A program made the position numbers and the translations under genes. A stretch of DNA of 64,000 bases from Diabrotica undecimpunctata. Taxonomy: Eukaryota; Arthropoda; Insecta; Coleoptera; Chrysomelidae. Of the stretch, positions 3,538 through 56,408 are shown piece after piece. Positions within the stretch are counted from its first letter, which is position 1, and each line of letters opens with the position of its first letter. A model generated the notes under the pieces. It saw only the letters and a list, made by a program, of their open reading frames with translations. It did not search any database and had not been told where the DNA came from. The stretch covers positions 2,914,001 to 2,978,000 of the forward strand of contig NC_092807.1 in NCBI RefSeq assembly GCF_040954645.1, in the 5' to 3' direction.

Positions 3538-5359
3538 TTCATAATTTCTTTAAATTATTCCCTTTAATAAACTATTTTCACGCCGCCCATGCCTGCATAC
3601 CTTCGTTTTGTTACGCCTTTTTTTAACAAAGAAATAACTTCGCCAAATGTTTCTTCTTCTTTTTATCTTGTTTTGCTACATAAAAATCTTTCCTAATAAC
3701 AAAGGAAAAAGGACCTATTGTGAAATCTCCGAGCTACCTTCTCAGAAAATCAGAAGAGTTGTTTTTCGTAGAAACTTTACTTTCTATTGGTAAACGCTAC
3801 GAAAATGAACCCCAATATCCCGGTTATTTAATGTCAATTTCGCGTGGCATCCTTCAGCCAATATCCCTTCCCTATTTTCAACCTTCGCTTGTCTAAGCCC
3901 TTCTAAATTCACAATCCGATATTCATTTCCAAGTTGGTTCCTGTGGCAAGCGGTCTTATCTTCGACAATCGGCGGTAAGTGGATTTTCAATTCACCCTTA
4001 TTTATCTTTACACAGTGAGTCCTATATTAAATATTTTCTCTTTTGTCCAACAGACGTGTTCCACTTCGAAGGAACGAGGTCACTTCTGTTTGCCGATTAA
4101 CCATTAGCCATTAACGATTAGCCATTAGCCATTGGCCATTATTTAATATTCACCATTCATTGTGCATTATTCATCATTCATCTCTACTACCGATTATTAC
4201 CTGTGCTATTCCTGTTTGGCTGTTTATCTTCTCGTCTGCCGAAATCAAACCGTAATTCGTTGCTGTAGCTACCTGTTGCCGAGGACCAAGTGTCAAGTGA
4301 CTTTATTGAAGGCCTAACGCCACTATCTGTATCCACCTGTGGCATATTAATTGTGAGTAGTAAATTTTATTGACTAAAGCTCAACTTTGATACCTAAACC
4401 GTAAGAATTTGATTTATAACGTTTAGTTTAGTGACCTTGCTGTTTATGGTTAAACGGAACGAACTATTATGAGTTTGAACCTACGATATAATATATGTAT
4501 AAATTACGGACCATTTCTTTTATATTAATGTAGGGTATATTTATGTTAAATTTCATATATAGATTTGAGGTGATCACATTCAATAAAAAAATTTTTTGGT
4601 AAACGTTTAAGTGTTCTCAAGGCATAATAATAATTTGTTTGACGAATATTGACTATTATAATGTCCCTTGCTTTCTTCTATTCTTGAGAATACTACGTTA
4701 TGCAGAATTACTTTCCCAAAAAAAATATTTTTTGTTTTTATTCGATTATAAATTAATCAATCACTTATCTCGTGTCATCTAACTGTGCCGTAAAGATTGT
4801 TATAGTGTATTTTTTTTATATACCTCAATATAATTTTGTTGACGAACCTTTTGCTTTTTATTTTTATTGTTATGATATGAATATATATTATTGTGCATGG
4901 TGTATCTCTTTCAGGCATTTTTACTGATTTATGTTATTTGTTTTATCGTATAATTAGTGTATCTGTGTCGAAATATTGAGTGTGTACCGCACGATCAAGA
5001 TACCTTTTCTCTCACGGTTTATTTTATTCTCGCGTATCTTAACTGTATCTTACCTTTCTCATTATCGTATTCTCTATGCCTTAAGGTTTCCCTGTTCCTC
5101 TAAAAATAGGGTGGTGCCCAAATAACTTTTCTTCTCTTATCTCTTATCTTCTCTTCTAACTTCTTGTCTTTGTGTCGTAAGTACTTCCTTAATTGATCCG
5201 TGATATTTGAGCTGTAACAAGAACCCCGACCAAGATACCTCTACCAGACTGAAGCCCGAGCCTAGTACCGTTCTTTGTGTAACCTTCAATCGATCATCAA
5301 GAGGGTACAAATACTGGAATATTGTTGCGTTGGTCTCTGGAGGATGAAGAAAGAATATA
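3538..5359. other. Noncoding region, no gene recognised
   Basis: AT-rich DNA without a recognisable coding frame. It has a purine tract near 3700-3712 and a TGGTGCCCA primer-binding-site-like string near 5112, either of which could mark Gypsy LTR borders. Neither is supported by a matching LTR pair. Confidence 0.4.
4084..4143 (+). repeat. Short tandem repeat of AGCCATT-like heptamers
   Basis: Repeated ATTAGCCATT and ATTAACCATT words run back to back here, then fade into related CATTCAT words to about 4180. A short local slippage repeat. Confidence 0.6.
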
Positions 5360-9509: not shown

Positions 9510-9655
9510 CAACACTTTAATCTCAAGTAGTCTATGAATTGTCAGAGACGTTTAATAACAATTAAATTATTTTATCTACACTTTTATTGTACTCGACAGT
9601 GAAATTTGTTTAACACGTCTCTTTTGCTATATTTTTAAATTTGTTTGCCCGCAAT

Positions 9656-10737
9656 ATGGCACACTATTCAAATTCTGAGATGACAGACATACTTTTAGTA
9701 TTAGGGGAATGTTCGGGAAATGCTGCTGCCGCTATAAGACGCTACAGAGAAAAGTATCCGAACAGAAATATTCCCAATGCCAGGACTTTTGTAAGTACTG
9801 AACGACGACTGAGAGAAACCGGTTGTCTTCAAAGAAGGAATACAGATGCTGGTCGTCGTAGAGAAGCAAGAAATGTTCGCGTTGAACAGCAAATATTGGA
9901 TGCTGTAATAAATGACCCCACAATAAGTACACGCAGGTTAGGATTAAGAACGAATATTTCCCATCAAAGTGTTTTAAGAGTTCTGCATGAAGAGCAATTG
10001 CATCCTTACCACTATCGACAAGTGCAGGAATTGTTACCTGACGATATGCCACTTAGAGTTGATTTTTGTGAAGTATTGCAAAATAAAGTTCAAACTGCAC
10101 CAAATTTTTAAGCAACATTCTGTTTACAGACGAGGCCACATTTACAAGACAAGGTATGTTCAATTCTAGAAATATGCACTTCTGGGCTGAAGAAAATCCA
10201 AGGGCTACAATGGAAACTCACTTCCAACACACGTTCAAGATAAACGTTTGGGCAGCTACTTTAGGAAATAGTTTCATAGGATACCACATCTTTCCCGGAA
10301 ATTTAAATGGTAACATGTATTTCAATTTTCTAGACAATATTTTACATGATATTTTGGAAGATATTCCATTACAAATACGAAGAAACATGTTTTTCATGCA
10401 TGATGGTGCTACACCACATTACACAAGAATTTGTAGAAGGTGGTTACATGAACATTTCCCTGATAGGTGGATAGGCCGGGGTGCGGATGCACCGATTCAT
10501 TGGCCTGCTCGTAGTTGTGATCTTAATCCAATGGACTTTACAGTATGGAGTTATTTGAAATCAAAAGTGTATAACACTCCAATTAATACAGTAAATGAGT
10601 TAAGAGACAAAATTGAACAAGTATTTACCGATTTACAAAAGGATCCAGTAACATTAAATGGATTAATGCGTTCGCTAAATAAAAGAATTAGATTATGTAT
10701 TCAACAAAATGGAAGACATTGTGAACAGTTGTTGTGA
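9656..10737 (+). pseudogene. Mariner-like transposase (one frameshift)
   Basis: The first frame (ATG 9656 to stop 10111) has an N-terminal helix-turn-helix (Y-S-N-S-E-M-T-D-I-L) of the DUF4817-like insect transposase type, then a second HTH-like region. The second frame, to stop 10737, carries the DDE domain. The first Asp is in T-D-E-A-T-F (codon 10129-10131), the second in M-H-D-G-A-T-P-H, the third in C-D-L-N-P-M-D-F. The last two are 44 positions apart, so DD43D. The frames differ by one base in a T-run near 10106, the only obvious lesion. Start 9656 is chosen because it aligns with the ATG of the relative at 37215. The encoded protein would cut and paste the element. Confidence 0.88.
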
Positions 10738-22813: not shown

Positions 22814-24269
22814 AGAGGAGCAAACATCTCTTAATTATTGGATAAAGGTATTGTTAGTAAATATCAGCATCGCTTTCAGGCAGGTAAGTCTACAAATACA
22901 GCAGTTCATTCATTTTATGAGACTTTAACTAACTATATTGATGCAGATGAATGCCCTGTCGGGATTTTTTGTGATCTCAGTAGGGCATTTGACTATGTCG
23001 ATCATACGTTACTCATTAATAAGTTAGAAAATATTGGAATAAAAGATCTCTCTCTAAAATGGATAGAATCCTGCCTATCAGAACGTCGTCAGTATGTCTC
23101 CTTAACAGATGTATCCCAACAATCAGTAAATATTTGCAAATCAGATTACATTTACATTCATATGGGTGTTCCACAAGGTTCTGTAATTGGCCCAATATTA
23201 TTTCTTATTTACTTAAATGATATTGTCTCAATAAATTCTGCTGTACAGTTTACACTTTATGCAGATGATACTTCAATACTTATATCAGATAAATCACATA
23301 TATCTCTTGAAAATAAATGTAACGAACTTTTGTGTGATCTTAGTAATTGGTTTTCCTCGAATTACTTACATCTTAATGCGGATAAAACGCATGCTATTCA
23401 TTTCCACAATAGACAGAAACATCTGTTAGATATCGAACTATCAATATATTCTAAACAAATTAAAAAAGTTCATTGCCTAAAGTTTTTGGGTTTGTATGTT
23501 GATGAATGTCTCAATTGGAAAAGGCAATGTGATGATATTATTTCCAAAATAAACTCATCATGCTACCTACTTCGAAACCTCAAAGATATACTAAGTGCAA
23601 AACAGCTAATTATGCTGTATTATGCTCAGGTGGAGTCTCGTTTGCGGTATGGCATAGTATTTTGGGGTAGGTCTTGTAAATTCGATGAAGTCTTTCTATC
23701 TCAAAAGAGAATAGTCCGTTGTATTGCTGGTATTTCTCGAATCACTAGCTGTAAGAGTTACTTTACTAGATATAAACTTTTAACTGTGCCGTGTTTATAT
23801 ATTTTTGAAGTTTGTGTTTTTATTCATTCAAATCTTGAGACATTTAAAACTAATAGTCAAATTCACAATATAAATACAAGGCAGAATCAAAAATTACATG
23901 TGCCTTTTTCTAAAGGAAATATGCATTTTTACTCAGCTGCAATAATAGGTCAAAGAATATATATAATAAGTTACCCGAGCCAATAAAAAAATGTAAGAAT
24001 ATGAAAATATTTAAATTAACTTTAAAAGATTTTTTATTGCAGAATACGTTTTATTCTGTTGATGAATATTTTAGTAGTTGACATTATTTTAAGTATATGC
24101 TAGTAATTTTACATTTTCTATTTGTGTTTGTCTTGTAATGTTAGCTTTAGCGTAATTTTAGATTTACATTTATATTTACTTATTTTGTTTTCTAAACTGT
24201 GAATGATCCTATACAAATTGTATTTGTCAAAAAGGAAATAAAGTATTATTATTATTATTATTATTATTA
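22814..24269 (+). pseudogene. Jockey/CR1-like LINE, 5'-truncated, RT nearly intact
   Basis: A 382-codon open stretch (22838-23986) covers most of an RT: Y-Q-H-R-F-Q-A-G-K-S-T, I-F-C-D-L-S-R-A-F-D-Y-V-D-H, G-V-P-Q-G-S-V-I-G-P, L-Y-A-D-D-T-S-I (catalytic Asps present), L-N-A-D-K-T, F-L-G-L-Y-V-D, then the thumb. A 2-nt slip in a TATATA run near 23958 breaks the frame; the other frame continues to a TGA at 24079-24081. An ATT-repeat tail (24242-24269) follows AATAAAG. The 5' half (endonuclease and RT motif 0) is missing, and no ATG opens the frame, as expected for a truncated insertion. One of the best-kept LINEs in the window. Confidence 0.9.
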
Positions 24270-33916: not shown

Positions 33917-34311
33917 TACACTCAGGTGCAAAAAAAAGCAACAAAGAAAATTTTGGTCAAATTCAAAGTATTTCAATTTTTTTTATTTTTAGCCCTATTT
34001 TGATGATTTTTCTAGCACACTGTGTATAAATTTACAAATTTTAATTTGGTATAGTTAGTTTCTTGATAAAATTTAATATTTGCTTATTGTGCAGGGTTAA
34101 TTAAAACATGGTTTTATTGCCATAACTTTGAAACATCCTGTGGAATAATTCCGCTTGCGAATTTTCGTAAAATTTAATTTTTCTGTAGCAACCATGCCTC
34201 CTTAGCATTGCGTTTTTTGTTTCATGTCAAAATATGCCTTGGTTTATTTTTTAGAGCCAAATCAATTTACCACCCACAATTTAGGACTTTTTAAATTATA
34301 ATTTAATCTAA

Positions 34312-34400
34312 TAACATCTTTATCAACGTCTGTTTTGCCTTGCAATTCTTAGAAGGCACAGATTAAAGCAAAAATCTGAATTTGGTTTCGAAAATTAGTT
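34312..34400 (+). repeat. Diverged piece of the 397-bp hammerhead repeat unit
   Basis: From TAACATCTTTATCAACGTCT through GATTAAAGCAAAAATCTGAA to TTTCGAAA this matches 54768-54855 and its two tandem copies with few differences. Weaker similarity may run to about 34460. The ribozyme half of the unit is not present here. Confidence 0.8.
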
Positions 34401-34515
34401 TACGGATTTTATTTTGGAGTTATTTTGTAAAACGAGGAGGTGGCTTCGGTGACTGTTATTATTATGTCATATTGACACTTACATTGTGTTTAATTATGAT
34501 TGATCATGGTTCTTA

Positions 34516-35415
34516 GTGTCGAAGATTATACAAACTGGAACAAACAAGCGTAAAGCGGGAAGTGGCAGGAAGCGCAAAACTACCGCTGTAGACGATCGTT
34601 TTATACGAGTCAACGCTTTGCGGGTTCGTCATTTAACAGCGGTGCAAACAAGAAATCAGCTTCAAGAGATTCGAGGCAATAATGTAAGTGTATTTACAAT
34701 TCGTCGAATATTACATAATATTGGTTTACAGAGTTGCAGACCAGCAAATGGGCCTAAATTATTTCCACGGCACACAGTGGCTAGACTACAATTTTCCAGG
34801 GAACATTTACTTTGGAATTCAGGACAATGGAGTAATGTTCTTTTTATGGATGAGTCGAGATACTGTCTTTACTCATCAGATGGGAGAAAACAAGTATGGC
34901 GCCAAACTGGAGAGAAATTTGCGGAGTGCGCTTTCAGTCCCTGCGTTAGCCACGGAGGGGGTTCGGTGATGATATGGGCAGGAATATCCTGAGACGCGCA
35001 CACTGAATTGGTATTTATTAAGAGGTTCATTGACTGCACACCGGTATATTGAGGAAATTTTATCGAATCACGCAGTACCCTTTTCTCAATATACCGGCAT
35101 TTTCTATTAATTCAAGATAATGTGCGATCCCACTCTGCAATGTGTGCCATGCAATATTTAGAGGAAGTTGGTATTAATAAAATGAACTGGTCACCTTGTT
35201 CGTTAGATCTAAACCTAATAGAGCATGTTTGGAATATGCTTCGTAGAAATATTAGAGGTCGCGAAGGCGCACCAGCCTCCACTAACGCACTTTGCTTGGC
35301 TCCAGAAGAGGAATAGCAAAACATCCAACAATATGATATTCGCAACCTCATAGACAGCATGAGCCGACGTGTACAGACAGTTATATAGGCTAGAGGAGGC
35401 AATACAAAATATTAA
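34516..35415 (+). pseudogene. Tc1-like transposase, DD34E, inactivated
   Basis: The first open part (to TGA 34990-34992) covers the second DNA-binding helix region (G-S-G-R-K-R-K-T-T, T-I-R-R-I-L-H-N-I-G-L) and the first catalytic Asp (F-M-D-E-S-R-Y). After the stop, with a frameshift out and back, come the second Asp (Q-D-N-V-R-S-H) and the Glu (L-N-L-I-E-H-V-W), 35 positions apart, giving DD34E. A frameshift near 34550 separates the start of the second helix region (C-R-R-L-Y-K-L-E-Q-T), and the first N-terminal helix-turn-helix and start codon are missing. A final frame ends near 35415. The protein cannot be made as is. Confidence 0.85.
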
Positions 35416-36993: not shown

Positions 36994-38467
36994 ATACTCT
37001 TGGTAAAACTCGATACTGTGTACCGTTTTCGGAATATTTTGATTTGAAAATTATGAAATAATAATTGATGCTGGTAGTAATGATAAAGTTCTAATAGGTA
37101 TACCTCTATTTTCTGCAAGTGTGCCATGGAAATCTGACATTTATTGATTATTATGACGAAAAACCAACAATAATTAGAGTTTTGAAACCTTGTTATTTGT
37201 AAAATCAAATCAAAATGTACTCAAATGTTGAATACACTGACATGTTATTAACCTTAGGCGAATGTTTAGGATGTTCTAGTGCAGCTGTGACACGTTATGC
37301 AGAAAAGTTTCCTAGAAGAAACTTACCAAGTAAAAAAACATTTAGGGCCGTTGAACGACGTTGTCGAGAAACTGGGAATGTCAGACCAAATAAAATAAAT
37401 TCTGGTAGACCAAGAACAACAAGAACAATTAATAAAGAAAATAATATTTTAAATTTACTGGATCAAGATCCAACAGTTAGCGTAAGGAATATAGCAAGAC
37501 AAACAAATACTTCTTCTTCAAGTACTTGGCGGATACTGAAAGAACAGCAATTACATCCTTATCATTACAGACAAGTCCAAGAGCTCTTGCCAGATGATCT
37601 ACCGGTTAGAGTGGATTTTTGTGAAACATTGCAACAAAGGACAGCCCACAATCCAAATTTTTTAAAATGCATTCTTTTTACGTATAAGGCCACCTTTACG
37701 CGACAAGGTATGTTTAACTCCCATAATGCACACTACTGGTGTGATGAGAATCCATGAGTCAAAAGGGTATCACATTACCAACACTCATTTAAAGTTAATG
37801 TTTGGGCAGCAACTTTAGGTAACAAATTAATAGGTTATCATATTCTACCTGGAAATTTAAATGGTGATATGTATCTTGATTTTTTAAACAATTCGTTATT
37901 TGAGATATTAGAAAATTTAACGCTAAACGAGCGAAGATCTTTATTTTTTATGCACGATGGAGCTCCACCACACTTTGACAGAAGGTGTCGTAATTGGTTG
38001 AGTAATCATTTTCCGAATCGATGGATTGGTAGAGGTGCAGAAGCTCCGATTCATTGGCCTCCTCGGTCATGCGATTTTAATCCTTTGGACTACGCAGTTT
38101 GATCTATGCTACATAGGTAAATTCACGCCAAGAATTGGAAGAAAGAATTCAACGTCAATTTAATGCCATCATAGCTGATCCCCTACCGTTTAGAAGGTTA
38201 ATGGAATCTTTAGAAAAAAGAATAGACTTGTGTATTCGCGAAAACGGAGGGCATTTTGAACACTTACTGTAATTGAATTTTATTTTATGTTCTTAGTCAT
38301 TAATTTAATTTTCTTCTTGTATGTTTTGTTTAATTACTAACTATTTTATACCAGCATCAATTATTACTTCATAATTTTCAAATCAAAATATTCCGAAAAC
38401 GGTACACAGTATCGAGTTTTACCAAGAGTACCCTAGAGACGGGGTTAGCTTTTTTTGAAACACCCTG
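36994..38467 (+). mobile_element. Second mariner-like DD43D element, left end damaged
   Basis: The right end is intact: 38350-38467 ends in CACCCTG followed by TA, the terminal word of many insect mariner-type elements. Its inner 80 bp (about 38350-38436) is the reverse complement of 36994-37075, but the outermost 45 bp of the left repeat are replaced by unrelated sequence. It carries a relative of the 9656-10737 transposase in the same orientation. Confidence 0.82.
37215..38272 (+). pseudogene. Mariner-like transposase, DD43D-type, dead
   Basis: ATG 37215 (Y-S-N-V-E-Y-T-D-M-L) opens the DUF4817-like N-terminal domain. The first catalytic position reads T-Y-K-A-T-F where the relative at 10129 has T-D-E-A-T-F, so the first Asp is Tyr. 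Stops lie at 37755-37757 (position fits a CGA to TGA change) and 38100-38102 (fits TGG to TGA). The second and third Asps (M-H-D-G-A-P-P-H and D-F-N-P-L-D-Y) are present, 44 positions apart. A deletion near 38115 precedes the end G-G-H-F-E-H-L-L. Confidence 0.87.
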
Positions 38468-39299: not shown

Positions 39300-41560
39300 A
39301 GCAAGCAAATAATATTAGTCCATGCAAAGGATGCAGGATTTAAAAACATGATAAAATCGTCAATAACGTACCCAGGTGCCGATGTTCCTACGGACCACAA
39401 TCTGTTGGTATGCAGAATGGTCATGAGAGTAAAACGGCTCGAGAAAAGATCTAATTTAAACACAATTGATATTAAGACACTCACTAACCCAGAAACCGAA
39501 ATAAAAGTACGAGAACAACTAGGAAAGAAAATAAACGACATTAACGAGAACACGTCGGATATAATAGAGAGATGGGATAAATCGAGGGAAGCAATCCAAA
39601 CAACATGCGCGACTCTATTAAAGCGTGACAGACGGAAGAAGAAAGAATGGATGTCTGATGAGATAATGGATACGATGGATGAAAGACGTAAATTCAAGAA
39701 TAAAAATGCAGAAAAATACCAGCAGATCCACAAAATCATAAGAACAAAAATTCGAGACGCCAAAGAAAAATGGTTTTCTAACGAATGCAGGGAAATAGAA
39801 CAATACGAACGAAAATACGACAGTTACAATATGCACAAAAAAAATCAAATCAATGACAAACAAGAGGAAATTCAATAAGTCACCCAACAGCATAAAAGAT
39901 GGCGATGGAAATTTTATCTCGGAGCCATCAACGATCTTAGAAATATGGAAATCATACATAGAAAAATTATCTGCATCTGACAGGACTGATGATCACCTAT
40001 ATGGAGAAGGAGAAACAGGACCTTCAATCCTTAAATCGGAGATAGAAGATGCCATTGCAGCACTAAAAAACAATAAGTCAGCAGGTCCGGACAATGTACC
40101 CTGCGAAATATTAAAGATCCTATGTAAATCAGATAAACAGTTCCTTGATAATCTAGTTGAACTTTTTAACAACATATATAATGGCGGTAAAATCCCGGAG
40201 AACTGGCTGCAGTCAACATTTATTACAATCCCGAAGAAACCAAATGCCCAGATCTGTGATGACTACCGGCTTATAAGTTTGATCAATCATGTAATTAAAG
40301 CGTTCACTAAGATCATTCATAGAAGAATATATGATAAATGTGAGTCAAATATTGATAGATCGCAGTTTGGCTTTCGGAAAGCACTTGGAACTAGAGTAGC
40401 AATTTTCGCTTTCCAGGTGCTTATACAGCGGTGTAGAGACGTTGATAAGGACGTGTATTTGTGCTTTGTGGATTTTAGAAAAGTATTTGACAATGTCAAT
40501 CATGAACAATTGATAGATATTCTGCGAAAGACACGTATTGGCGACAAGGACATTCGAATTGTGGCAAACCTATACTGGGGTCAAACAGCAAAAGTAAAAA
40601 TTGGCAACGAACTCACTGAAAGTGTGCAGATCAAAAGAGGTGTCCGTCAGGGGTGTATATTATCCCCACTCCTATTCAATATTTATTCCGAAGAAATATT
40701 TAACAAATGTATGGAAAATGCAAATGAAGGCATAAAAATAAACGGCGAGTAAACTAACAATATAAGATATGCCCACGACACGGTGATCCTTGCCAGTACG
40801 ATAGACGAATTACAGCAGGTAATGGAAAGAGTTGATTCAGTTAGTGAGGAATACGGACTGAGCCTCAACTTCAAGAAGACAAGGCGGAAGCTGATAAGCA
40901 GGGAGCAACAGCTTGCTCGACAGTTACGGATAAGTAACATACTAATTGACCATGTAGAATCTTATGTGTACCTTGGCACCAACGTAAATGCAAAATGGGA
41001 ACAGGCCACAGAAATTAAGACGAGAATAGAACGACCTAGAGCAGCATTTAGCAATATGAAAAAGCTCCTCATAAGCAGGGATTTGTCTCTTCCCCTAAAA
41101 CTACGTCTAGTTAAATGTTACATTTTTCCGATCTTACTGTATGGTGTGGAGGCCTGGACGCTGACGAAGACGCTCACGAGAAAACTAGAAGCATTCGAAG
41201 TGTGGATGTACCGACGCATTCTTCGTATATCCTGGACCGAACATGTCACCAACATAGAGGCAATCGAAAGAATCGGAAAGGAGAAAGAAATCGTGAATAC
41301 AATTAAACAAAGAAAGCTTGAATATCTAGGCCACATATTGATACAGGATAAGTACCGTCTACTGCAATTGATTGTCCAGGGAAAAATACACAGTAAGCGA
41401 GGGCTACGCAGGAGAAGACACTCGTGGCTCCAAAATCGGAGGAAGTGGTTCGGGCTCACATCGGTCGAACTATTCAGAAGCGCCGCAAACAAGATCAGAA
41501 TTCCCATGTTAATAGCCAACGTTCGCAACTGACAGAGCACTTGAAAAAGAAGAAGAAAGG
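39300..41560 (+). pseudogene. LINE family A, most complete copy (endonuclease end to 3' end)
   Basis: Starts within the endonuclease (Y-P-G-A-D-V-P-T-D-H-N-L-L, with the conserved S/T-D-H). A frameshift in an A-run near 39840 leads to the second frame: K-S-A-G-P-D-N-V-P, Q-F-G-F-R-K-A, F-V-D-F-R-K-V-F-D, R-G-V-R-Q-G-C-I-L-S-P. A TAA at 40750-40752 interrupts it. The third frame has the RT centre as Y-A-H-D (40768-40779) in place of Y-A-D-D, then Y-V-Y-L-G-T-N-V, Y-G-V-E-A-W-T-L-T, L-G-H-I-L-I and L-F-R-S-A-A. A GAAGAAGAAA tail follows. It would encode endonuclease plus RT for retrotransposition but is inactive. Confidence 0.9.
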
Positions 41561-54546: not shown

Positions 54547-54604
54547 AAATATATTTTATAAAATAAAAAAGACAGCAAAGATTTGATTTCACGTACAAAG
54601 CGTC

Positions 54605-54662
54605 TATGTATCTGTTGATACGTATTTCGACTTAATAAGTCTCATCAGAACAGTTATTCATA
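54605..54662 (-). ncRNA. Type I hammerhead ribozyme, minus strand copy
   Basis: On the minus strand this is identical over its 58 nt to the plus-strand copies: stem I CTGTT/AACAG plus TATG/CATA, core CTGATGA and GAAA, stem II GACTT/AAGTC. Predicted cleavage after the C at 54617. It lies in the inverted end piece of the array. Confidence 0.88.
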
Positions 54663-54958
54663 GCCGTTCTTAACGTGAAAAATAATCTTCTCTGTCTTTT
54701 AGGAAGCAACAATAACAACAATTGATAGACATGTCGTGGAATGCAAATTTTAGATTCCCCATGTCTCTATTAACATCTTTATCAACGTCTGTTATACCTT
54801 GCATTTATAGAAGGTTCAGATTAAAGCAGAAATCTGAATTTGTTTCGAAACTATCTTACCGATTTTTCTATTAGATGTCGCTATTGCGTCCATAACGAAG
54901 CCATTTTATTGTTGCTTCCTAAAAGACAGAGAAGATTATTTTTCACGTTAAGAAAGGA

Positions 54959-55016
54959 TATGAATAACTGTTCTGATGAGACTTATTAAGTCGAAATACG
55001 TATCAACAGATACATA
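54959..55016 (+). ncRNA. Type I hammerhead ribozyme, unit 1
   Basis: Core CTGATGA (54973-54979) and GAAA (54993-54996) flank stem II (GACTT, loop ATT, AAGTC). Stem I pairs CTGTT (54968-54972) with AACAG (55005-55009), with an internal loop (AATAA opposite ATA) and outer pairs TATG/CATA, as needed for the tertiary contact that speeds type I ribozymes. Stem III is the short palindrome ATACGTAT, which would work best in a dimer, as in other small-stem-III hammerheads. Cleavage is expected after C55004 (AUC). No mismatch in any conserved core position. Confidence 0.92.
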
Positions 55017-55355
55017 GACGCTTTGTACGTGAAATCAAATCTTTGCTGTCTTTTTCATTTTATTCGGATCTACTCTGTATGAGTACAAGAAACAAATTCG
55101 TTAAAGATTTCTGCTTAGGTGATAGACATGTCGTGGAATGCAAATTTTAGATTTCCCATGTCTCTATTAACATCTTTATCAACGTCTGTTATACCTTGCA
55201 TTTATAGAAGGTTCAGATTAAAGCAGAAATCTGAATTTGTTTCGAAACTATCTTACCGATTTTTCTATCAGATGTCGCTATTGCGTCCATAACGAAGCCA
55301 TTTTATTGTTGCTTCCTAAAAGACAGAGAAGATTATTTTTCACGTTAAGAAAGGA

Positions 55356-55413
55356 TATGAATAACTGTTCTGATGAGACTTATTAAGTCGAAATACGTAT
55401 CAACAGATACATA
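55356..55413 (+). ncRNA. Type I hammerhead ribozyme, unit 2
   Basis: Identical to unit 1 and exactly 397 bp downstream. Predicted cleavage after C55401, so the two plus-strand sites delimit a 397-nt monomer. Confidence 0.92.
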
Positions 55414-55867
55414 GACGCTTTGTACGTGAAATCAAATCTTTGATGTCTTTTTCATTTTATTCGGATCTACTCTGTATGAGTACAAGAAACAAATTCGTTA
55501 AAGATTTCTGCTTAGTTGATAGACATGTCGTGGAATGCAAATTTTAGATTCCCCATGTCTCTATTAACATCTTTATCAACGTCTGTTATACCTTGCATTT
55601 ATAGAAGGTTCAGATTAAAGCAAAAATCTGAATTTGTTTCGAAACTATCTTACCGAAATATATTTTAGTTGTTATAATTTAACATAACTATTTATTATAT
55701 GGTGCAGATAATTAAATATTGATTGTCGGTAATTCGCAAAGTTCTATTTTATTTACTATTTAGTTTGTTTACTATTAATATTGGCTATGAGTACGTGTGC
55801 TTGGTTGTATAGTAATTTCCAGCCACTTTTAGTCCGTCAAAAAGTAACTAACTATGCAATAAAATCA

Positions 55868-56408
55868 TCTTATATACTAAAACGCTAAGCCCTTTTCTTG
55901 TCCACCACTTTACTCAAAAACCATACTAGATCATTAAAATATTTTTTCGGAATATTATTAGTATTACGTAAGAGATTGTCAAGATATACTTTTGGTACAA
56001 AAATTCACTTCCGGTTTTGAGATGAACGGAAGTTAAAATTTACTTTAAGTTTAAGACCCCACAATGTATATATGGATCGAAAGGTGTCGTCGAGACGAAT
56101 CTAAATATGCACTTCCGGTTGTGATCCGACACCGGAAGTGACCCGAAACGCGCATAAAACGTCAAGATAAAGCAAATCTGACACCGGATTCGTGATCAGC
56201 ATGCAAAATTAACTGCTAAATGATAACATTGTAACAAAAAACATTGTTTTCGACGAAATATTTCGTAATATTTAATATACTTTTTACTTGCATTATTATT
56301 GATGAATGTTATGTATATTCTTGCTTATATTGTTTGTATTGATCTCTTAATTTTTCTCGCAAAATAAAAATTTCATTTAAAAAACTCGATGTCGAGTTGG
56401 TCCGCTAG
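55868..56408 (+). mobile_element. Non-autonomous Helitron
   Basis: Starts TCTTATATACTAAAACGC after a host A (55867) and ends CTAG before a host T (56409), the expected A/T insertion. A hairpin (AACTCGA, TG, TCGAGTT; 56383-56398) lies 6 nt before the terminal CTAG. No Rep/helicase is encoded, so it depends on an autonomous partner. An internal 10-bp stem (CACTTCCGGT with ACCGGAAGTG, 56110-56140) and a further ACTTCCGG word near 56010 are extra structure. 541 bp. Confidence 0.82.

Follow-up and report, generated by a model that had tools for sequence, protein, structure and literature searches.

A 397-bp sequence is present in direct tandem copies in the 64-kb window (the whole stretch of DNA that was analysed), and an inverted part of the same sequence lies head-to-head with them (Table 1). 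Tandem Repeats Finder gives a period of 397, 2.4 copies, 98% matches and no indels at 54723-55656, which corresponds to 2.35 copies of the 397-bp unit. This repeat had been recognized in a preliminary description made from the letters alone, in which the array was placed at 54724..55657, off by one base. Between units 1 and 2 there are 4 differences in 397 positions, all outside the ribozyme, so that the hammerhead core is unchanged between the units, as had been claimed. The inverted piece agrees with unit 1 at 155 of 158 positions and with unit 2 at 154 of 158.

A perfect 12-bp duplication, AAATATATTTTA, encloses the inverted piece together with the array. In a control with site pairs of no more than 20% G+C taken from the window, in which the same 2-base slip was allowed, a match of at least 12 bp was found in 19 of 39,777 random AT-rich pairs. 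Because the perfect duplication lies at the outer edges of the inverted piece and the array, the whole 1.1-kb structure is best read, on the evidence of its sequence, as one retrotransposed insertion and not as a satellite. The outer ends of the insertion fall at differing unit positions, 341 for the inverted piece and 140 for the array, which are 59 nt and 255 nt past the ribozyme cut, respectively. Directly downstream of the insertion, two 22-nt repeats round ACTTCCGG are found 104 bp apart at 55999-56124.

Table 1. Positions in the window of the insertion, its hammerheads and hairpins, and the relic
Feature	Position	Strand	Basis
Diverged relic, unit positions 44-144 only, 5' truncated, 3' end as that of the array	34307..34410	+	
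Left copy of the 12-bp target-site duplication AAATATATTTTA; last base overlaps the inverted piece	54547..54558		Exact match to 55656-55667
Inverted partial unit, 158 bp, unit positions 184-341, head-to-head with the array	54558..54715	-	
Core block of the third, inverted hammerhead; minus-strand cleavage predicted after C54617	54625..54648	-	
Junction of inverted piece and direct array, 5-7 unassigned bases	54716..54722		
Direct unit 1, 397 bp	54723..55119	+	Tandem repeat and unit alignment
134-nt hairpin of unit 1, stem I extended outwards, hammerhead at tip	54921..55054	+	
Type I hammerhead of unit 1; predicted cleavage after C55004	54959..55017	+	
Direct unit 2, 397 bp	55120..55516	+	Tandem repeat and unit alignment
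134-nt hairpin of unit 2, hammerhead at tip	55318..55451	+	
Type I hammerhead of unit 2, identical to that of unit 1; predicted cleavage after C55401	55356..55414	+	
Partial unit 3, unit positions 1-140, ending at the presumed start of reverse transcription	55517..55656	+	Relic end alike
Right copy of the 12-bp target-site duplication AAATATATTTTA; first base overlaps the array	55656..55667		

Hammerhead motifs and predicted RNA folding

Each complete unit contains CTGATGA, stem II (GACTT/AAGTC) with the loop ATT, GAAA, the stem III palindrome ATACGTAT and a two-part stem I (TATG/CATA and CTGTT/AACAG) with the internal loop AATAA/ATA. The core is intact in all three copies, two in the complete units and one in the inverted piece, and the topology is that of type I. 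The plant LTR retrozyme, which has a type III hammerhead in its LTRs, does not agree with this topology. The core pattern CTGATGAG..CGAAA occurs three times in the window against 0.04 expected, and three or more occurrences were found in none of 100 shuffles. A stricter descriptor, with at least 4 bp in stem I, at least 3 in stems II and III, and UH as the cleavage site, finds three sites when both strands are searched and none in 60 shuffled windows. Cleavage had been predicted after C55004 and C55401, and motif alignment and the descriptor agree on both sites. Of the hammerheads, the two direct copies had been noticed earlier, whereas the inverted third copy had been overlooked together with the 12-bp duplication, the relic and the 134-nt hairpin; apart from the hairpin, these are the features from which most of the mechanism is read.

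At gathering cut-offs, no Rfam family matches the hammerheads here, and the covariance-model search proposed as a check in the preliminary description gave no significant hit, one of the two results that had been named there as a joint refutation. Below its cut-off of 56.3 bits, RAGATH-1-hammerhead reaches 24.4 bits (E=0.38) with the direct copies and 21.4 bits (E=1.7) with the inverted copy, and the Rfam type I hammerhead family has no match at E up to 10. The miss is not taken as a refutation, because the core, the stems and the cleavage site are intact and the motif is absent from shuffles.

The 134-nt hairpin that bears the hammerhead at its tip has a predicted energy of -38.4 kcal/mol in unit 1 (z -5.44), -37.1 kcal/mol in unit 2 (z -4.91) and -41.0 kcal/mol in the inverted copy (z -5.56), and in each case none of 200 shuffles folds as well. 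The complementary strands of the two hairpins that were tried fold about equally (z -6.44 and -5.28), and therefore the hairpin does not tell the strand. Both direct units carry A at 54955 and at 54958, whereas C stands at the two matching sites of the inverted copy; the C version folds better (-41.0 versus -38.4 kcal/mol for unit 1). Because of these two sites and the better fold, the inverted piece may come from another RNA or may keep an older state. For the 397-nt circle as a whole, the predicted energy is -96.9 kcal/mol, with a z of -4.4 and no shuffle out of 100 as stable; 62% of the bases are paired.

Stem III can form either 2 bp with an ACGU loop within one molecule or 8 bp between two. 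In the direct 76-nt motif, the active fold is estimated at -4.4 kcal/mol without stem III and at -1.2 kcal/mol with a 2-bp stem III, versus a minimum of -10.2 kcal/mol; the corresponding values for the inverted motif are -7.5, -4.3 and -13.4 kcal/mol. As other folds of the short motif are predicted to be more stable than the active one, this modelling counts against efficient cleavage of the monomer. Co-folding of two 76-nt motifs gave no double hammerhead, the dimer being joined via the stem II sequences. Dimer action through the palindromic stem III would be reasonable by analogy with axolotl retrozymes, which likewise have a weak palindromic helix III and are described as cutting better as dimers (PMC7229834). 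In a transcript of the whole locus, the inverted piece and the hammerhead arm of unit 1 are predicted to form a duplex of 155 bp, because of which this locus may be poor at monomer release. Transcription of the unit by Pol III seems unlikely, since the unit has six T-runs of at least 4.

Relic, coding content and neighbouring transposons

The relic at 34.3 kb shows 86% identity to the unit (E 5e-26 in a search within the window). With nhmmer (E 1.2e-12) it is the sole match outside the masked array in the 64-kb window, where the unit is represented by one array and one relic. The 3' end of the relic is at about unit position 139-144, and that of the array, at unit position 140, is no more than about 4 bases away; by simple arithmetic, the chance of an agreement within 5 bases is about 11 in 397. 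The array and the relic have one 3' end but different 5' ends, as in target-primed reverse transcription, suggesting a fixed start of reverse transcription 255 nt past the ribozyme cut. In the array's copy of the relic segment there is a perfect 8-bp hairpin, TTCAGATT/AATCTGAA, of which 6 of 8 pairs are left in the relic. A duplication round the relic has no support, the longest exact match being 4 bp. A fragment of a Tc1-type transposase (HTH_Tnp_Tc3_2) at 34516-34992 starts about 100 bp downstream of the relic.

On the 397-nt circle, no ORF is longer than 54 aa; the ORF of this length has no homologue in a search that was blind to full-length proteins, and the frame that opens at the ATG of CTGATGA reaches a stop after 13 codons. 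The GIY-YIG endonuclease, which is given as the mark of canonical Penelope-like elements (PMC11167929), was found neither at E up to 0.01 in the six frames of 50-64 kb nor in any of the 20 window ORFs of at least 150 aa. The earlier statement that there is no protein is borne out by these searches.

Pieces of reverse transcriptase are found at 57.6-58.4 kb and 59.0-59.4 kb. The latter is adjoined by RNase H and zf-RVT matches, both below cut-offs, which suggest that this piece is from a LINE. There are several reverse-transcriptase fragments in the window, LINE-like where this can be judged. For the reverse-transcriptase ORF at 22838-23986, the most similar species-named protein among the best 120 of 4,355 matches is from Diabrotica balteata (86% identity over 55%), and a Callosobruchus chinensis protein among the same 120 (50% over 97%) has a better E-value. 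For that at 39853-40752, the most similar species-named protein among the best 120 of 372 matches is also from Diabrotica balteata (91% over 57%). Diabrotica being a genus of leaf beetles (Chrysomelidae), these matches point to a beetle near it as the probable source of the window. Mariner-like ORFs at 9641-10737 and 37215-37757 both contain DUF4817 and a weak HTH_Tnp_Tc3_2, and DDE_3 is present in ORF 10156-10737, which neighbours a mariner-like ORF. ORF 3-1352, with Integrase_H2C2 and rve domains, is probably part of an LTR-retrotransposon polyprotein. At 1832-2058, three tandem copies of a unit of about 82 bp are found, in which ACCTTACCTTC recurs.

Affinities and proposed mobilization of the insertion

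Metazoan non-LTR retrozymes are described as having a type I hammerhead in each tandem unit of 150-450 bp, low G+C, no protein and, when a duplication is present, one of more than 4 bp (PMC7229834). The present unit is like them in these respects: its size falls within this range, its G+C content of 32% is below the retrozyme limit of 45%, and its 12-bp duplication exceeds the 4-bp criterion. It differs from them in the inverted partial unit within the same insertion and in an insertion 3' end away from the ribozyme cut, neither of which is mentioned in the excerpted text of PMC7229834, and, set against the same excerpts, in a hammerhead that sits on a 134-nt stem I hairpin. The class is further characterised by tertiary contacts between loops 1 and 2, by the lack of LTRs, primer binding sites and polypurine tracts, by many dispersed genomic copies, and by linear and circular RNA of unit length (PMC7229834); the internal loop of stem I and the stem II loop of the present unit are candidates for such contacts, and the 64-kb window shows one array and one relic. 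The pDo500 satellite of Dolichopoda cave crickets is similarly an insect hammerhead repeat with a proposed double-hammerhead mode; unlike the array here, it is a satellite of about 500 bp that makes up about 5% of the genome of one cricket, and for its double form a stem III made inside a single copy is proposed (PMC2837043). Of the Schistosoma W elements/SMalpha, some families have hammerhead repeats, one element is flanked by duplications and one unit measures 403 bp, in all of which they resemble the present array; they are unlike it in being platyhelminth and in forming satellite-like tandem arrays (PMC8490949).

The 24-nt core block of the unit is found identically in hammerheads of three IMG/VR viral contigs (L001, L002 and L003). 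L001 and L002 match the Rfam type III hammerhead with E of 7e-7 and 1.3e-5, both below the family cut-off. This identity is tentatively read as convergence. A 23-mer common to the unit and the relic has no match in the genome contigs and viral contigs, a 17-mer round the cleavage site is found in two viral contigs with no hammerhead core adjoining, and a plasmid search gave no match. In L003 there are two hammerheads like type III, whose cores at 3642 and 3948 are both preceded by a GGGCAG..CTGCCC stretch. L001 and L002 have further core-like matches, and in these two contigs the 24-nt block identical to that of the unit is followed by a GAGGT stretch and an ATG.

In Penelope, duplications of 8-10 bp enclose direct pLTRs together with head-to-head inverted ones, also where foreign sequence is carried in trans (PMC3846280). 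A purified Penelope enzyme is reported to cut both strands of AT-rich DNA and to start copying at internal sites of its RNA that have no homology to the target, with the same start sites on both strands in vitro; from the numbers given, the main start is about 85-92 nt past the ribozyme cut and a second one is 30-40 nt away (PMC11167929). The insertion here is like Penelope-like elements in that direct copies and a head-to-head inverted partial repeat lie in one short duplication (PMC3846280), and also in its AT-rich target, the presumed internal start of reverse transcription and the type I hammerhead in the repeat (PMC3846280, PMC11167929). Unlike them, it has no GIY-YIG gene found nearby, and helix III, an 8-nt palindrome, is present. 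Unlike those of the enzyme in vitro, its outer ends use different start positions, of which 59 nt fits the Penelope distances, whereas 255 nt does not (PMC11167929). The start positions and the insertion anatomy are mixed evidence for a Penelope helper. The preliminary description had matched the array to retrozymes or to the terminal repeats of Penelope-like elements; a retrozyme-like, non-autonomous type I family stands as the best reading, while the Penelope part of the match is weakened by the lack of a GIY-YIG match in the frames and ORFs searched and by the presence of helix III.

With its units, three hammerhead motifs, inverted piece, duplication and a 3' end common with the relic, all of them visible in the DNA, the locus is read here as a non-autonomous, non-LTR retrozyme, probably of a chrysomelid beetle, a reading to which we give about three chances in four together with its cycle, for which we infer cleavage, a circle, dimer action and the identity of a helper. 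In this cycle, the tandem copies would be transcribed, and the hammerheads would cut out a 397-nt RNA, probably aided by two copies pairing through stem III (ATACGTAT). A host ligase would close this RNA into a circle, and a reverse transcriptase supplied in trans would start inside it at about unit position 140 and run for more than two laps. The multimer would be inserted at a nicked AT-rich site, where extension of the second target strand would copy a portion of the RNA in reverse orientation to give the head-to-head inverted piece and the 12-bp duplication. By analogy, the array could equally have been copied from a linear multimer instead of a circle, because hammerhead mutants of Penelope left insertion unaffected and unprocessed RNA was the main substrate (PMC11167929). 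A Penelope-like helper is somewhat more likely than a LINE-like one. A more specific version, which is tentative and falls short of an even chance, is that Penelope-type machinery inserted the retrozyme RNA, copied for over two laps, from two starts, 59 and 255 nt past the cut, the fixed 3' end then being a helper recognition site apart from the hammerhead.

A variant of the retrozyme explanation differs in the helper: the retrozyme would have been moved by a LINE, and the inverted piece would be a product of ordinary twin priming. LINE twin priming is the main rival and a fair one, if unlikely; among L1 and trans-mobilised copies, those with 5' inversions are recognised as a class (PMC2912911), and the window holds the LINE-like fragments mentioned above. 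Against it, no LINE 3' end in the window has the tail of the unit, because the relic is the sole match to the unit outside the array, and the 3' end of the array is without poly-A or a simple repeat. Another origin, which we consider improbable, would make the 397-bp unit the pseudo-LTR of a Penelope-like element and the locus a Penelope insertion whose protein gene was lost or was not copied at all. The head-to-head inverted partial copy with direct copies in one short duplication is a typical Penelope layout (PMC3846280), and type I hammerheads are known in Penelope pLTRs (PMC11167929, PMC6155905, PMC7761336), but no GIY-YIG domain was detected at E up to 0.01 in the six frames of 50-64 kb, and the 54-aa ORF has no homologue in the search blind to full-length proteins. 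Moreover, Penelope hammerheads usually lack helix III and loop contacts (PMC6155905, PMC7761336), whereas the hammerhead here has a helix III, palindromic and 8 nt long, and a stem I in two parts, and the ORF of the Penelope element studied begins at stem II (PMC11167929), whereas the CTGATGA frame here ends after 13 codons.

Hammerhead tandem repeats of newts, crickets and schistosomes have gone under the name of satellites (PMC7229834, PMC2837043, PMC8490949), and the array might likewise be a plain tandem satellite formed via unequal exchange, with the hammerhead as a passenger and the inversion as a later rearrangement. The perfect 12-bp duplication at the outer edges of the inverted piece and the array, the number of just 2.35 copies, and the truncated, dispersed relic with the array's 3' end make such an origin very improbable. 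It is also hard to credit that the hammerhead is a chance or dead motif, as the sub-threshold Rfam scores and the more stable inactive fold might indicate; three intact cores against 0.04 expected, the letter-identity of the 24-nt core block to blocks inside the Rfam type III hammerhead matches of L001 and L002, and a stem I that runs on into a significant 134-nt hairpin all argue against it.

The retrozyme class has already been published, insects included (PMC7229834), and the earlier suggestion of an unreported family holds at most at the level of this sequence. Among the papers listed for Diabrotica and for beetles, no title points to a hammerhead or retrozyme element of this sort, although an earlier report may exist, and among those listed for inverted copies, none shows one inside a metazoan retrozyme insertion by title or abstract opening. 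For the reinsertion of animal retrozymes, Penelope-like elements are named only as likely candidates (PMC7229834, PMC7761336). If the two-start insertion by Penelope-type machinery is true, it would be direct sequence evidence for the proposed, unproven partnership between Penelope and retrozymes. Since this compact insertion has kept its two ends along with the duplication and the inverted copy, it offers precise starts against which a Penelope enzyme can be tried in vitro. For other genomic copies, it predicts a 3' end at the hairpin-bearing region that is kept in the old relic, and not at the ribozyme cut.
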